Program-made: the position numbers and the translations under genes
Source of the DNA: a virus
Direction: 5' to 3' (one strand)
Length of the DNA: 20,421 nt
IMG/VR virus record: IMGVR_UViG_3300031722_000947
Coordinates: 1 to 20,421 of that record
Shown: piece by piece, positions 7,652 through 20,421 of the stretch
Layout: each line of letters begins with the position of its first letter
How positions within the stretch are numbered: position 1 is the stretch's first letter
The notes under the pieces: model-generated
What the model was told of the DNA's origin: nothing
Database searches by the model: none
Seen by the model: the letters and a program-made list of their open reading frames with translations, nothing else

Positions 7652-8224
7652 CTAGCGTGTCCATGCAACGACTCTGCCATTCATAGCTTGAATTATGTAA
7701 CCTGATCCTTCATAAGTAGTTACGACACCGTCTGTTCGATTGATCTGTCCAATTTCATCTACCTGCGCTACACACAGCTGAAATCGTGTAACAGTCTGGC
7801 CGATCATCGGGCGACGAAAGTCGGCCCCGCATTGCTTTTTAAGTTGTGCAGTTACACGTCGCTCTTTAGCTTCCTGCAGTTTCTCTTCTTTTGCCTCCTG
7901 TTCTGCAAGTACTTTTTGTTTTTGCAAATCAAGTTCATTGCGATTCTCATTAGCTTGTTTTTCTGCAGCCAAACTATCGGCGCGAACCCTCTCTTGCGCG
8001 AGCAGTTCTTGTCGTTGAGCATTAAGACGCTCCTGCACCTTCTTTTGGTGTGCGGCCTCATCAGCCTCATCATCCGCTTTCAACTTTCGAAAGAAGTTGC
8101 AATCCCGCTCATTCATGTCGCGGCCGTCGCGCCATTTACAGTTCACCGTGTCGTTGTAGTTTGGCTGAGCGTTGCCCGAGCCAGCCAATAAAAATGCTAT
8201 GAGTGTTAACGCAACTTTTTTCAT
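7652..8224 (-). CDS. Exported coiled-coil protein coupled to the repressor (possible moron)
   Basis: A 190-residue protein with a signal peptide (MKKVALTLIAFLLAGSGNAQ). A highly charged coiled coil spans about residues 45-128 (AAHQKKVQERLNAQRQELL, ELDLQKQKVLAEQEAKEEKL). A C-terminal globular part contains IGQTVTRFQLC, QINRT, TYEGSGYIIQ and a final NGRVVAW, loosely reminiscent of small SmpA/BamE-like periplasmic domains. Four cysteines lie outside the signal region (about C29, C42, C132, C151). The start overlaps the repressor stop (ATGA) and has a strong GGAGGTGAG, so it should be made whenever the repressor is, i.e. in the lysogen. The DNA is visibly AT-richer than its neighbours. Not recognised as a named family; a lysogenic-conversion role is inference. 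Confidence 0.78.
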   Translation of the reverse strand: MKKVALTLIAFLLAGSGNAQPNYNDTVNCKWRDGRDMNERDCNFFRKLKADDEADEAAHQKKVQERLNAQRQELLAQERVRADSLAAEKQANENRNELDLQKQKVLAEQEAKEEKLQEAKERRVTAQLKKQCGADFRRPMIGQTVTRFQLCVAQVDEIGQINRTDGVVTTYEGSGYIIQAMNGRVVAWTR

Positions 8225-8976
8225 CGCTCACCTCCAATCCAAATAATCTTCCCCACTAGCCTGACCTGATCAATCGCGCCTGGCTTTACTTCTTCCGCAG
8301 GCCATTCTGGATTATCCGAACAGATCCGCAGGCCACCATCAACCAACGGCATCAACCGTTTACATCGGGACTCGCCCCCATAGTCGATCACGTACATGCC
8401 CTCTGACAGCTTGAGCTGCTCCGATGTGTCCACTAGTAATATGTCCCCATCCCGCACGGTTGGCTCCATTGATCGGCCACGCGCTGAGATGACTCTGAGT
8501 TTTCCCGGTATGAGCCCCTTTCTCTCAATCCAAGAACGCCTGAACGCAAACCGACCAATTTCAATTTCTTCTTCAACCATTTGACCAGCACCTGCGCTAG
8601 TTCGAACGTTGAGCTGCGGCACAAACAAAAAGTCGCTGGATGGATCCGTTGACCGTTCTTGTTCCTGCTTTTCCTCCGTTCGGCTTATTTGTTTCTCTCT
8701 TCCGGGAAAAAAATTTGATGGTTCCTCTTCATCTAGGTAGCGCCACCTGGTGAACCACTCTACGGGTCTTCCAGAAAGTTCACTCACTTTCATGAGCTGG
8801 CTGCTCGGTATCTTCCCGCGCTTTCTCCAGGTCCTAACCGTTTCAGGTTGAACCTCCATTTTCCTCATCCAGTCGGCAGGCACACGTGCATGCAAGGCCG
8901 ACGCTATGCGCTCTATCACCTGATCTACAGAGGGTGCCTCCCCGACTCCGTGTACGTCGGTCAGTAATTTTTTCAT
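8221..8976 (-). CDS. CI-like phage repressor with S24 (LexA-type) autocleavage domain
   Basis: A 251-residue lysogeny repressor. The N-terminal CI-type helix-turn-helix (about 15-75) includes VIERIASALHARVPADWM, VQPETVRTWRKRGKIPSSQL and SGRPVEWF. An acidic, low-complexity linker follows. The C-terminal peptidase S24 domain has an Ala-Gly cleavage region, TSAGAGQ (A128-G129 or A130-G131), the catalytic serine in RGRSMEPTVRDGDILLVD (S169) and the catalytic lysine in SRCKRL (K206). SOS-induced RecA-stimulated self-cleavage is the known behaviour of such repressors, so this phage is probably DNA-damage inducible. The ATG at 8976 follows AGAGGG. It is divergent from ner, with three operator-like dyads between them. 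Confidence 0.92.
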   Translation of the reverse strand: MKKLLTDVHGVGEAPSVDQVIERIASALHARVPADWMRKMEVQPETVRTWRKRGKIPSSQLMKVSELSGRPVEWFTRWRYLDEEEPSNFFPGREKQISRTEEKQEQERSTDPSSDFLFVPQLNVRTSAGAGQMVEEEIEIGRFAFRRSWIERKGLIPGKLRVISARGRSMEPTVRDGDILLVDTSEQLKLSEGMYVIDYGGESRCKRLMPLVDGGLRICSDNPEWPAEEVKPGAIDQVRLVGKIIWIGGER

Positions 8977-9296: not shown

Positions 9297-9610
9297 AACC
9301 CCATCTCAAGCTGCTCGGTTCCGGAAAATTAGTTTTGCTTAACGAAGGCATTTCAGGCTTGTCTGAGCAACAGACCAGGAAACGCATTCGTGAACGTCAT
9401 GGATCGTTGAGAGCTTTCTCCATCCGATTCGGGCTTGACTACTCGGCACTCTTGCTCTCCCTGACCCCCCACAGCACAAAGTTTGCCGGTCGTGTTGCTG
9501 ATACGCGCCGCATGCTGGGCCTGCCTTCCAACCCAACTGCCAGGAACGTGTCCCTTGCGTTGACCCATGCACGGCGGCGTGGCGAGACATTGGCGAGGGC
9601 CGCATCATGA
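9293..9610 (+). CDS. Small early protein, basic, possible HTH
   Basis: A 105-residue basic protein, not assigned to a named family. The central part, GSLRAFSIRFGLDYSALLLS, could form a helix-turn-helix, and the C-terminus is Arg-rich (THARRRGETLARAAS). The ATG at 9293 overlaps the ner stop (ATGA) and has GGAGGGG upstream. The gene's own end overlaps the transposase start in the same way. Genes in this slot of Mu-like phages are often small DNA-binding proteins; a regulatory or transposition-accessory role is inference. Confidence 0.72.
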   Translation: MKPHLKLLGSGKLVLLNEGISGLSEQQTRKRIRERHGSLRAFSIRFGLDYSALLLSLTPHSTKFAGRVADTRRMLGLPSNPTARNVSLALTHARRRGETLARAAS

Positions 9611-11736
9611 CGTGGGCCACCGCAAAACAGCTCGCTGGTCTTCCAGGCTTTCCTTCGAGTGAGCGTCGTGCACAAGAAGCCGCCAAACGTGCTGGCTTAC
9701 CGACTCGCCCACGTTCTGGCCGTGGTGGTGGACTTGAGTATTCAGTGGAGTCCCTTCCTCCAGCTGCGCGCATGGAATGGGCTGCAAGGTTTGCAGCAGC
9801 CAATGACGACGCTTCGCCCAAGGGCTCAATTGCCACCCTCACACAATCCAGAGCCAACTCCACACGGGAGGCCGCTTTGGTTACCGGCTGGCGCAAGGAC
9901 CGCCAAGACGCCATCGCCCGCGTGCTGATTGTGTTTCAGCGGTTCTGGCAAGGCTTCGGCGGGCAGGTCACACCAGCGCTTCATGCCTTCTGCGCCCAAT
10001 GGAATGCGTCCAAACTGGAAGTTGACGCGGGCTTACGACTTCAATTCCCAACGTTGACGTTCACCACAACGCGCCGCTGGTATGTTGGTGTGCAGGAGCG
10101 TGGCCTTTCGTCTATCACTCCACCAGAGCGTGCACGTAAGGGGCAGTATTCAGCACTTACAGGTGAGGTCGGAACAGCCATGCTGGCAATGCTGATTCAG
10201 CAACCACATCTTTCTGCCCAAGCGCTGTATGAGGCGCTTCAAACCCAGTCTTTAGACCTGCCCAGCATATGGTCATTCCGTCGCGCACTGGCCTACTGGA
10301 AACAGCAGAACGCTCAGCTCTTTGAAGCGGCCATCAACCCGGACGGCTGGCGCAACAAGTACATGTCGGCAGCGGGCAGCTACAGCGAAGGCATCACCCG
10401 CCCCAATCAGAAGTGGGAAATGGACAGCACGGTGGGAGACATCATGCTGGCCGACAACTGCCGCCATCACATCGTGGGCGTCATCGATGTGTACACGCGC
10501 CGTCGCTTGTTCATCATCACGCGCACCAGCCGGGCCAACGCCATCATGAGCTTGATCCGTATGGCTATCCAACTGTGGGGTGTGCCCGAGTCGATCAAGA
10601 CCGACAACGGAGCCGACTACGTGGCCCAGGTGCTGGAGACCGCGTTGCTCGGGCTTTCGATCGACCACCCTCTTTGCGCGCCCTTTAGCCCGCACCAAAA
10701 GCCACACATTGAGCGCGCCATCGGCTCACTGATGCATCAGCTATTTGAGCAGCTGGACGGATTCATAGGTCACAGCGTCGCCGATCGCAAGGGCATTGAA
10801 TCGCGCAAGGGCTTTGCCGAGCGCATCCTGAAGGACAAGACTTTCACGGTCGATATGCGCCTGTCACCTGAACAGGTGCAGGGCGGGCTCAACACGTTCT
10901 GCACCCGCATGGACAGCAAGCCGCGTGACTACCTGGGCGGTAAATCACCGCTGCAGATGGCAAAGGGCTTTACTGCCAAGACCATCAGCGAGCGCGCCCT
11001 GGACATATTGCTGGCGCCCAGTGCCGGGTCTGGTCTGCGCACCATCGGCAAGAAGGGTATCAAGATCGCTGGCGGCTTCTACAACCATGCGCACCTCGGC
11101 GGCATGGAGGGCACACAGGTGCAGGTCAAGGTGGACGATTCCAACCTGGGCCGCTGCTGGGTGTTCGACATGGACGGCCAGTTTGTCTGCGAGGCCCTTG
11201 ACTACCAGCGCCTGGGCATCAACAGCGCAGAGGTCGCCGCAGCACGTCGATCGCACCAAGCGATGGTGGTTCGGGAGCAAAAGCGGGAACTGCGCGATGC
11301 CAAGAAGAGCTTCGATACCCGCGCTGCGGTGGCTAGCATCAATCGCATACGCACTGAAGAGGCGGTTGCAGCAGCTCCCAACGTGGTGCTAATCCAGAGC
11401 GCGGCCTCAGTTGCTCCCGTAGAGCACACCAGCCTGTCCATTGCGTCCATTGATGCCGCAGCTGCACCGGTCATTGACCAGGCCCAGGTGGACGCAGCGC
11501 AAGCCGCATTAGTTGCGCGCCTCGCTGAACCCGCGCAGGTCCGCCCCATCGCTGAAACACCGCAGATGCGCTATGCGCGCTGGCTCAAGTTGCAGGAGCG
11601 TGTGCAGCGCAGCGAGGCCTTGGGTGCTGATGACGGCAATTGGTTTGAGGGGTACGCGCAAGGGTCCGAGTGGGCCTCTATGAAGCGCTACTTCGATGTT
11701 TTTGGTCTGTCGGCTGACCAGGTGTTGACCGGCTGA
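9607..11736 (+). CDS. tnpA: Mu-family DDE transposase A
   Basis: A 709-residue transposase for integration and replicative transposition. The N-terminal Mu-type DNA-binding domain (about 3-60) includes WATAKQLAGLPGFPSSERR and GGLEYSVESLPPAAR. The catalytic RNase H-fold core holds D273 (KWEMDSTVG), D333 (IKTDNGADYV) and E369 (KPHIERAIG). That leaves 35 residues between the second Asp and Glu, a classical DD35E spacing. A Mu transposase C-terminal beta-barrel region follows (GGFYNHAHLGGMEGTQVQVK, about 490-540), then an Ala-rich charged tail that in MuA contacts MuB. It sits directly upstream of the ATPase gene. The start overlaps the previous stop by ATGA. Length is close to MuA (663 residues) but somewhat longer at the C-terminus. 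Confidence 0.95.
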   Translation: MTWATAKQLAGLPGFPSSERRAQEAAKRAGLPTRPRSGRGGGLEYSVESLPPAARMEWAARFAAANDDASPKGSIATLTQSRANSTREAALVTGWRKDRQDAIARVLIVFQRFWQGFGGQVTPALHAFCAQWNASKLEVDAGLRLQFPTLTFTTTRRWYVGVQERGLSSITPPERARKGQYSALTGEVGTAMLAMLIQQPHLSAQALYEALQTQSLDLPSIWSFRRALAYWKQQNAQLFEAAINPDGWRNKYMSAAGSYSEGITRPNQKWEMDSTVGDIMLADNCRHHIVGVIDVYTRRRLFIITRTSRANAIMSLIRMAIQLWGVPESIKTDNGADYVAQVLETALLGLSIDHPLCAPFSPHQKPHIERAIGSLMHQLFEQLDGFIGHSVADRKGIESRKGFAERILKDKTFTVDMRLSPEQVQGGLNTFCTRMDSKPRDYLGGKSPLQMAKGFTAKTISERALDILLAPSAGSGLRTIGKKGIKIAGGFYNHAHLGGMEGTQVQVKVDDSNLGRCWVFDMDGQFVCEALDYQRLGINSAEVAAARRSHQAMVVREQKRELRDAKKSFDTRAAVASINRIRTEEAVAAAPNVVLIQSAASVAPVEHTSLSIASIDAAAAPVIDQAQVDAAQAALVARLAEPAQVRPIAETPQMRYARWLKLQERVQRSEALGADDGNWFEGYAQGSEWASMKRYFDVFGLSADQVLTG

Positions 11737-11812: not shown

Positions 11813-12559
11813 ATGACAAAGAAAATGGCAACCGCAAGCGGGGGTGGCGTTATTGCCCCCACCAGCAACATTGGCCTGGTACACACGCTGATGGAGCAGC
11901 TCACAGGACGCGCTGCTGGCCTGCCTGGTATCGGTGCCTTCTATGGCCGCTCCGGACTTGGTAAGAGCTTTGGTGCTTCGTACGCCAGCCACCCTGCCGG
12001 GTTCAATGGAATCTATGTCAGCTGCCGCAGCTTTGAGACCAAGAAAAGCTTTGCAGAGCAGATCTGCAAATCCATTGGTATCACCGCCAAGGGCAATATT
12101 CCCTTGATCGTGGACGCGATCGTAGAGGTGCTGTCCATCACTAACCGCCCGCTCATCGTGGATGAGGTGGACTACATCGTGGAGAGCCGCACCCTGGAGC
12201 TGATCCGCGACATACATGATGCCAGCGGTGCCGCGATCCTGTTGATCGGCGAAGAGCATCTTCCTGCAAAGCTCAAGCGCCATGAGCGGTTCGACAACCG
12301 TGTGTTGACCTGGCAGCCCGCCGCAGTCTGCAGCAGCGGAGATTTTGACCTGCTCGCAAAGCAATATGCCGGTGATATTCAGGTATCAGCGGATCTCAAG
12401 AAGCGCGTCCTGGCCGAGACCAACGGGATTACCCGACGCGTGGTGGTCAACCTGGAGAACATCAAACGCTGGTGCGATCGCAAGGGTGTCAAGGAAGCCC
12501 CGGCCAATTGCGACGTGGATCTGTACACAGGCCGCGCTCCTGGAAGGGCAGGTCTGTAA
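11813..12559 (+). CDS. tnpB: MuB-like transposition ATPase (AAA family)
   Basis: A 248-residue AAA ATPase that, in Mu, binds target DNA and activates the transposase while preventing self-insertion. Walker A is GRSGLGKS (45-52) and Walker B LIVDEVDY (114-121). A sensor-like LLIGEEHLPAKL follows, then an Arg-containing ERFDNRVLTWQ and a helical C-terminal domain. It lacks the N-terminal helix-turn-helix of MuB (312 residues) and is shorter, as in BcepMu-type TnpB. The ATG at 11813 has AAGAGGA upstream; a second ATG at 11825 is possible. Its TAA overlaps the next start (TAATG). Position right after tnpA confirms the assignment. Confidence 0.93.
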   Translation: MTKKMATASGGGVIAPTSNIGLVHTLMEQLTGRAAGLPGIGAFYGRSGLGKSFGASYASHPAGFNGIYVSCRSFETKKSFAEQICKSIGITAKGNIPLIVDAIVEVLSITNRPLIVDEVDYIVESRTLELIRDIHDASGAAILLIGEEHLPAKLKRHERFDNRVLTWQPAAVCSSGDFDLLAKQYAGDIQVSADLKKRVLAETNGITRRVVVNLENIKRWCDRKGVKEAPANCDVDLYTGRAPGRAGL

Positions 12560-13188
12560 TGGCAAGAAAACCCATTCACCTGGAGGTGACTGGCATGCTC
12601 ACGCCCCGCGACCGCATGTGGGCCTTCATTCGCAAGGCGCGCAAGGTCACCTGCCAGCAGCTGCAGGAGGGCGTTGGAAGCCCACACCTGAACCTGGAGA
12701 CCATTCAGGATTACCTGCTGGTGCTATGCCGATCGGGATACCTTAAGCAGCTCAACAAGCAGGGCCATGACGCCCGCGTGCGATTTGACGAAGTGCATTT
12801 CGAACTGGTCAAAGACAGCATTGAGGCACCTCGCATAAACAAGGAAGGCGGCAAGGTCACCCAGGGTGTCGTCACGCTGGCTATGTGGCGCGCCATGAAG
12901 GCTATCAAAGAGTTTGACTACAGGGACATTCAGCGCGCTGCCAGCCTGGGCGATGTTTTGCAGGTCTCTGCGCAGACTGCCAAGAGCTACGTTGTACTGC
13001 TGGCACGCGCCGGGTATTTCAAGACGGTACGTGCTGCCAAACCTGGCATCCCTGCGCGCTATCGAATGGTTCGGGATACCGGTCATCACGCGCCTGCCAT
13101 TACACGCCGCAAGTGCGTCTTTGATCGCAACACTGGCGCGTTCACCTGGCAGCAATCAGAACAGGAGGTGTGCGATGGCCTCCAATAA
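12559..13188 (+). CDS. Putative regulator with two winged-helix-like domains
   Basis: A 209-residue protein, not a named family. Two successive segments look alike. TPRDRMWAFIRKARKVTCQQ...LVLCRSGYLKQL (about 14-70) and LAMWRAMKAIKEFDYRDIQR...VVLLARAGYFKTV (about 105-160) each give helix-helix-turn-recognition helix and an 'RSGYLK/RAGYFK' wing entry, suggesting an internal duplication of a winged helix. The C-terminus is basic and Cys-poor. The ATG at 12559 overlaps the tnpB stop by one base and there is an AAGGGCAGG purine stretch upstream. Longer in-frame starts lie inside tnpB. It is likely DNA-binding; the target is unknown. Confidence 0.75.
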   Translation: MARKPIHLEVTGMLTPRDRMWAFIRKARKVTCQQLQEGVGSPHLNLETIQDYLLVLCRSGYLKQLNKQGHDARVRFDEVHFELVKDSIEAPRINKEGGKVTQGVVTLAMWRAMKAIKEFDYRDIQRAASLGDVLQVSAQTAKSYVVLLARAGYFKTVRAAKPGIPARYRMVRDTGHHAPAITRRKCVFDRNTGAFTWQQSEQEVCDGLQ

Positions 13189-19653: not shown

Positions 19654-19676
19654 GCCCCTTAAATGGGGCTTTTTTT
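19654..19676 (+). terminator. Intrinsic terminator of the early operon
   Basis: GCCCC-TTAAAT-GGGGC (19654-19669) followed by seven T residues. It lies 25 bases after the last early gene and would end the 10.5-kb transcript from the ner promoter before the phage end, keeping early transcription from entering the host gene. The perfect inverted repeat at 19621-19634 just upstream could add a second structure. Confidence 0.88.
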
Positions 19677-19685
19677 CGTCCCAAA

Positions 19686-19843
19686 CGTCCGAGTTAGCGT
19701 CCGAGTTCTGCACAAAAGTTATGCAATTGGCGTCCGAGTTCTCTTTTCTGCCAGGAAACCGCCTAGCGTTGAAACTCCATACAAATCAGTCACTTAGCGA
19801 AACTCGGACGCTCAGTGCGAACTTGGACGGTAGCGTCCGAGTT
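19686..19843. repeat. Six copies of CGTCCGAGTT in direct and inverted orientation
   Basis: Non-coding DNA between the terminator and the phage end carries the 10-mer CGTCCGAGTT at 19686-19695, 19698-19707, 19731-19740 and 19834-19843 on the plus strand. It appears inverted as AACTCGGACG at 19801-19810, and AACTTGGACG (one mismatch) at 19820-19829. The first two are 12 bases apart. The last two form a dyad with a 4-base spacer. Copies are often extended to GCGTCCGAGTTC. Protein-binding sites near the end are likely, for the transposase or a regulator. They are seen directly; the ligand is inferred. Confidence 0.85.
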
Positions 19844-20122
19844 CGACGCTGACCGGAGTGCCGCCCGCTGGTGATCAGATCGGCCAACTATGCCCAAAAA
19901 GCCTGTATTGGCGCGGGGTTACGGTGGTTTCAGAGGGGAGAGCGGGCTGCGGAGACCGACGCGCCAAAACGGCCCAGGAGACGCGATCGGTCCGATGTCC
20001 TTGCGTCCGGTGCTACGATGGCTCCCGATGCCCCATAGGCCCGATTTGCCCCGCAACCCCTTGATTTCATTGGCCCCGGCCCGTTTTGTCCCGGCTCATC
20101 CCGCCCCTTCCCGGATATGCCA
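19844..20122. other. GC-rich phage-end region, no gene seen
   Basis: About 280 bases with no convincing coding sequence. Open frames exist (for example from 19858 and 19890), but their translations have no family character. The frame that leads into gspK is not GspK-like before about 20120. The second half (20020-20107) has diverged repeats of a GGCCCGATTTGCCCC-like element. The phage terminus probably lies at the right edge of this segment. It could also hold the packaging start, as the left end does in Mu; this is inference. Confidence 0.6.
20020..20107. repeat. Diverged ~18-bp end-proximal repeats, candidate transposase sites
   Basis: Two clear copies 40 bases apart are GGCCCGATTTGCCCCGCA (20038-20055) and GGCCCGTTTTGTCCCGGC (20078-20095), which share 14 of 18 positions. 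A related element with a small gap shift is GGCTCCCGATGCCCCATA (20020-20037). A weaker one is GGCTCATCCCGCCCC (20093-20107), and GGTCCGATGTCC (19989-20000) may be a fifth. Multiple diverged sites close to a terminus are what Mu-type transposases bind. Confidence 0.6.
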
Positions 20123-20132
20123 TCCTGTGCGC

Positions 20133-20348
20133 TCGGTCACAGCCGGCATCCGCGAAGGCACGACGGCACAGGTGGATGCCAAGGACTTCAGTGTGGGTAG
20201 CCGCTACTTCGCCGTACGGGGCCGATTGCGCCTGGGTGACTCTGCCGTACAGGAGGTGTCGCTGGTGGAACGCAACGGCACGGTGAGCAAGGTGATCTGG
20301 CGCCAGCGCGAGGCGCTGCATACCGCCACAACGGCTTCCCTACAATGA
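20133..20348 (+). pseudogene. gspK: 3' fragment of type II secretion minor pseudopilin gspK
   Basis: The reading frame ending at TGA 20346-20348 encodes about 71 residues of GspK-like C-terminus: AQVDAKDFSVGSRYFAVRGR, LRLGDSAVQEVSLVERNG and KVIWRQREA. 'S.SRYF.VRGR.RL' with 'V.V.WR.R' at the end is typical of GspK, the large minor pseudopilin that caps the type II secretion pseudopilus. Upstream of roughly 20120 the frame stops resembling GspK and runs into phage-end DNA, so the gene is cut by the prophage. The 5' part would lie beyond the other phage end. The exact junction is uncertain, so the start given is approximate. Confidence 0.7.
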
Positions 20349-20361
20349 GCGCACTGAAGCC

Positions 20362-20421
20362 ATGTCCACATTGATTCTTACCCTCCCCCTCACCGCTGTC
20401 TCAGCCACGCCTGAATATGAC
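20362..20421 (+). CDS. gspL: 5' end of type II secretion gene gspL (runs off window)
   Basis: ATG at 20362 opens MSTLILTLPLTAVSATPEYD to the window end. 'MSTLIL.LP' is a usual opening of GspL, the cytoplasmic/inner-membrane assembly-platform protein that follows gspK in type II secretion operons. It starts 13 bases after the gspK stop, which fits operon order K-L. With the upstream gene split by the prophage, its transcription may be reduced. Only 20 residues are visible, so the call depends on context. Confidence 0.6.
   Translation, partial: MSTLILTLPLTAVSATPEYD

Follow-up and report, generated by a model that had tools for sequence, protein, structure and literature searches.

A six-site array near the right end of a Mu-like phage as a probable transpositional enhancer read by the transposase N-domain

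Near the right end of a Mu-like phage, six 10-bp sites form a cluster that, judged from its sequence, is probably a transpositional enhancer (internal activation sequence) of the Mu type, bound by the N-terminal domain of the transposase, bent by IHF and separate from the repressor operator. The sequence of this array changes in step with the DNA-reading residues of the transposase. The window analysed here is a 20,421-base IMG/VR record that carries the right part of the phage, and its array is best read as a new form of a known Mu element, with a recognition code that can be tested.

In the window, the gene for an S24-type repressor on the minus strand (8221-8976) is followed, in this order, by those for a Ner-like HTH protein, the transposase, a MuB-like protein, GemA and Mor. 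The plus strand carries a DDE transposase of the MuA type, TnpA (9607-11736; HTH_Tnp_Mu_1, rve and Mu-transpos_C domains; phrog_310, PF02316, PF09299, rve), and its MuB-like AAA partner (11813-12559; phrog_296). Adjoining the MuB-like gene, most but not all relatives have the phrog_2030 regulator (12472-13188 in the window), which apparently consists of two tandem winged-helix domains. A terminator-like hairpin followed by a T run (19654-19669, plus strand), present in relatives as well, closes the early operon.

Relatives were collected via the transposase, and the phage termini were placed where similarity breaks off in an alignment of three left ends and six right-end regions. Phages among these relatives begin with TGTAAGCGG and finish with CACA, and their TG...CA ends are flanked by 5-bp duplications (GAAGG in L006, GTGGG in L008, GTTCG in L016). 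A previous placement of the left end of L006 at position 1202 of reversed L028, with a 4-bp duplication AAGG, was overturned by alignment with L008 and L016. By the same comparison the phage in the window would terminate at 20141 with GGTCACA, the last bases of a terminal transposase end site (20118-20141, plus strand), and host DNA would start at 20142 with the presumed target-site copy GCCGG (20142-20146), so that only the right end is contained and the left copy falls outside the window. A conserved end-type site found by alignment, TGCGTCCG (20002-20009, plus strand), lies about 135 bp from the phage end. In the host part (20142-20421) an open frame resembles what we take to be the end of the type II secretion gene gspK, followed by gspL; a Pfam search of this part gave no match. 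DNA similarity searches of the end region against annotated phages returned short spurious matches only.

The motif CGTCCGAGTT occurs in five exact copies and one single-mismatch copy within 158 bp, four on the plus and two on the minus strand. The left sub-cluster consists of three plus-strand sites, S1 (19686-19695) and the exact copies S2 (19698-19707) and S3 (19731-19740), and the right one of S4 (19801-19810, exact) and S5 (19820-19829, CGTCCAAGTT, one mismatch) on the minus strand and S6 (19834-19843, exact) on the plus strand, giving offsets of 0, 12, 45, 115, 134 and 148. The original prediction had described a six-copy cluster of mixed orientation, which is confirmed except that copy S5 is imperfect. 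The 12-base tandem (19686-19707) and the dyad (19820-19843) it named are both there, the latter as a 10-4-10 near-palindrome of S5 and S6 with one mismatch, and the position between the hairpin and the phage end was correct. A mutational or chance repeat without function, for which the shortness of the motif may speak, has next to no probability, since the window, shuffled as a whole 100 times with its dinucleotides preserved, gives 0.04 exact copies on average against the five observed, the geometry is kept across diverged phages and the same base is changed in all sites. Searches of the array region detected no promoter-like sites and no Rfam match, on which grounds a promoter or an RNA element was rejected, and downstream of the array there is no conserved gene. 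Literature searches with the 10-mer found only papers with unrelated titles.

Between sites 3 and 4, and hence between the two sub-clusters, lies a perfect IHF consensus, AATCAGTCACTTA (WATCARNNNNTTR; 19784-19796, plus strand), which an earlier reading of the window had overlooked. At the equivalent place the consensus is perfect in eight phages and has one mismatch in five more; in several members the match is weak or absent, and in L013, L055, L103, L104, L107, L017 and L161 it is no better than in shuffled sequence. By consensus, the putative enhancer thus contains a predicted IHF site. A second perfect consensus (20054-20066, minus strand) is situated about 80 bp from the right end, with similar sequence in some relatives.

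The layout of three plus-strand sites, the IHF site, two minus-strand sites and a final plus-strand site recurs at near-fixed spacing in L006, L011, L097, L008, L013 and L016, with identical orientations and offsets within a few bases of those in the window (0, 11-12, 44-45, 112-116, 131-135 and 145-149 for S1 to S6), and L096 retains five of the six sites. The outer edge of the array is 298 bp from the phage end in the window and 267-284 bp in L006, L011, L007, L008, L016, L096 and L097. Absence of the motif from the ends of close relatives, or its abundance in host DNA, would have spoken against the original prediction; close relatives do carry the array, and the 10-mer is uncommon in host DNA: a relative genome of 4.8 Mb has 11 exact copies, of which four belong to the array. 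The 10-mer, which might have been expected at the opposite phage end as well, was absent there in three relatives, and the internal cluster is separate from the terminal sites and occurs at one end only. In L007, the whole unit of end, array and hairpin (8389-8900) lies on the side of tnpA opposite to that in the window, which indicates that the array goes with the end and not with a promoter, and that a rearrangement has changed the position of this end relative to the early genes. In one bacterial genome (G190:C1), two Mu-like prophages that differ from each other and are separated by about 44 kb, L096 at about 3.978 Mb and L103 at about 4.022 Mb, share the CGTCCGAGTT arrays, and the transposase of each might bind the enhancer of the other.

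The distribution of the arrays points to the N-domain of TnpA (9610-9801, plus strand), a homologue of the enhancer-binding domain of the Mu transposase. Common to all array-bearing phages are only TnpA, through this domain, and the MuB-like protein; in some of these phages the repressor, Ner, Mor, GemA or the phrog_2030 regulator is either lacking or unrelated. In L052, L055 and L102-L106 the likeness of the transposases to that of the window is concentrated in the N-domain or first 60 residues (about 50%), and the remainder is about 23-25% identical where it can be aligned. In profile comparisons the domain matches the Mu transposase (1tns, E 3e-13) and the Mu repressor domain (E 9e-6), and its AlphaFold model (pLDDT 90.8) superimposes on 1tns with Z 9.3 and 1.8 A over 64 residues. 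In this model the recognition helix begins at Glu19. By both profile and fold, TnpA carries the MuA I-alpha enhancer-binding domain. Internal transposase-binding or enhancer sites, one of the options first proposed, are strongly supported, as the arrays of the relatives track the transposase N-domain.

The start of the recognition helix, Glu19-Arg20-Arg21 (codons at 9661-9669, plus strand), covaries with site bases 4 and 6. Glu or Asp at 19 followed by Arg20-Arg21 accompanies sites with a CGTCCGA core. In L008, L013 and L016, which have Glu-Phe-Arg, all sites read CGTGCGAGTT or a close variant retaining G4, and in L054/L110, which have Ala-Phe-Arg, they read CGTGCAAGTT. With the N-domain left out of the tree, the changes Arg20Phe and C4G each occurred twice, on the same branches, and Glu19Lys in L007 and L107 is accompanied by A and C in place of G6; the array of L007 is degenerate, and the covariation comprises four coupled changes. 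Changes at residues 19-20 go along with changes in all or most sites of an array. For L105 and L106 (Glu-Arg-Arg), GTCCGA-core arrays were predicted and then found, as five copies each of CGTCCGACC[AT] and CGTCCGACCT. The sites of L102 (Glu-Lys-Arg) read CGCCCGACTT, which a simple residue-base code fails to explain.

These observations bear on the question of which transposase domain reads the array. It is conceivable, if unlikely, that the sites are additional end-type sites, gripped by the terminus-binding domain as in transposons with many terminal sites: GCGTCCG is common to the terminal sites and the array, the array is near an end, and the tandem array of L017 may abut an element end. 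However, in the Phe20 clades the array sites have become CGTGC(G/A) while the terminal sites still read GCGTCCG, the array goes with the N-domain even in phages whose TnpA is otherwise about 23% identical, and it is confined to one end. The alternative raised at the outset, that two domains of one protein act here, is strongly supported by the same facts, with the array following the N-domain and the terminal sites staying GCGTCCG when the array changes. Cooperative binding of a dimer, suggested at the outset from the dyad and the tandem, may occur, and the enhancer reading does not depend on it.

The original prediction had also allowed for a regulatory array, which was not borne out: the region has neither a promoter-like site nor a conserved downstream gene, and the array is retained in phages whose repressor, Ner, Mor and GemA differ or are lacking. 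That the cluster is an operator array for a phage regulator, be it the repressor, Ner, Mor or the phrog_2030 winged-helix protein, is a very improbable reading, although the dyads suggest a regulator and the arrays of L052 and L055 overlap the repressor gene at its start. The repressor-ner gap of the window holds GGTTCA/TGAACC repeats, a motif other than that of the array, the early promoter is about 10 kb away, and some phages with the array have no genes, or unrelated ones, for the repressor, Ner, Mor, GemA and the phrog_2030 regulator; on the motif mismatch in the gap and the gene distribution, an operator for the repressor, Ner or Mor was rejected. Least favoured among the functional readings, and improbable in the extreme, is a packaging start (pac/cosB-like) recognised by the small terminase subunit together with IHF. 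The position near one end would suit such a site, and lambda cosB likewise combines repeated sites with an IHF site. Against this, the site sequence covaries with TnpA residues 19-20, and the array is kept in otherwise unrelated phages that have the TnpA N-domain in common. The window contains no terminase gene.

For the enhancer reading, further evidence comes from phages found by DNA pattern. IMG/VR was scanned twice with patterns of the motif alone, and the multi-copy non-coding matches were, besides the known relatives, MuA-type phages (L017, L021/L040, L052, L054, L055 and L056), some with transposases as little as 23-37% identical to that of the window; the remaining matches examined were isolated single ones. 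L051, L057, L018-L020 and L023-L025 were discarded as isolated matches, from phages that lack either the N-domain or the Mu-transposase C domain. Among all fetched loci, several of which overlap, 28 clusters of CGTNNNASTT were counted vs 2 of the reversed pattern. The arrays of L017 and L040 are long tandems, which may double as end sites. In L017 (4741-4915), fourteen tandem CGTCCGAG[AT]T units adjoin the repressor gene of a MuA-type element, and the last unit continues into AGCGCTACA, possibly the element end; a matching duplication was sought at the far end of this element and not found. L145, with an Asp-Arg-Arg helix, has no array in its record, which starts just upstream of tnpA.

When 8-mers repeated in mixed orientation were sought de novo, further arrays came up where the transposases have other recognition helices, several of them just upstream of tnpA; shuffled loci gave no matches, and some of the real matches lie inside coding DNA. 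Examples of these arrays, which differ in sequence, come from more distant MuA-type phages (L111:19829-19969, L120:834-960, L126:1594-1714, L146:2364-2490, L149:779-903 and L161:2172-2302), and are possibly the enhancers of those phages.

In the mechanism that we propose, copies of the MuA-type transposase would grip the six 10-bp sites, arranged as three on the left and three on the right of the IHF site, through their N-terminal winged helix-turn-helix domains, while other domains of the transposase hold the phage ends. IHF would bend the DNA between the sub-clusters, and the left end, the right end and the enhancer would be brought together ahead of DNA cleavage. Binding to the array, bending by IHF and an effect on transposition are inferred here; as the parts known from Mu are all present, the same role is the best inference. 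The array is about 10 kb from the repressor-ner gap with its different repeat, so that the staging of transposition and the control of lysogeny appear to be separated, and the arrangement is a variant rather than Mu's own, in which enhancer and operator coincide. The arrays of L052 and L055, which overlap the repressor start, indicate that both arrangements exist.

A wider reading, on which our confidence is evenly balanced, is that the enhancer is a general and independently evolving part of Mu-like phages with an I-alpha domain, with a code readable from residues 19-21 and bases 4-6, and that it occurs stand-alone near an end, upstream of tnpA, at the repressor start or, as one of several arrangements, fused with the operator as in Mu. 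If so, phages that share a code within one cell could cross-react. The Mu enhancer is the textbook example of a DNA site that stages transpososome assembly, and a 2021 study of transposable prophages in Leptospira described the enhancer-binding domain as so far seemingly specific to Mu (PMC8705779). In the phages compared here, the domain occurs together with a matching array in many that are only distantly related, and the array is usually separate from operators, an arrangement that separates the control of transposition from that of lysogeny. Natural matched pairs of domain and site thereby become available for tests of specificity, and enhancers and phage ends could be located from sequence.

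Several known systems can be compared with the array of the window. In Tn7 (TnsB), CAST and Tn552-type elements, short repeated sites near the transposon ends are bound by a DDE transposase; these end-binding sites are found at both ends, whereas the array is at one end and apart from the terminal sites. The closest likeness is to Mu, where six MuA subunits use their end-binding domains to hold both ends and their N-domains to form a bridge to the enhancer (PMC3562280), the N-domain being the enhancer-binding part of MuA (PMC3362531), and where the enhancer, bent by IHF, raises transposition about a hundredfold in vivo (PMC5847225). It lies immediately to the right of the repressor gene (PMC5977238); enhancer and operator coincide and are drawn as O/E (PMC3820752). 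The Mu enhancer (IAS; operators O1-O2) and the array are both internal cis sites near one end with an associated IHF site, six subunits in Mu compare with six sites here, an N-terminal wHTH domain is bound to the enhancer in Mu and is the predicted binder in the window, and TG...CA ends with a 5-bp duplication are shared by Mu and the relatives. In Mu, the DNA-binding domain of repressor c (1qpm) belongs to the same fold family as the TnpA N-domain; the repressor of the window matched only Peptidase_S24 in Pfam, and competition of repressor and transposase for one site is therefore not expected. In contrast to the Mu enhancer, which is the repressor operator between c and ner, the array of the window stands alone about 300 bp from the end, consists of different, strictly spaced 10-bp sites, and is accompanied by an S24-type repressor with another operator-like motif.
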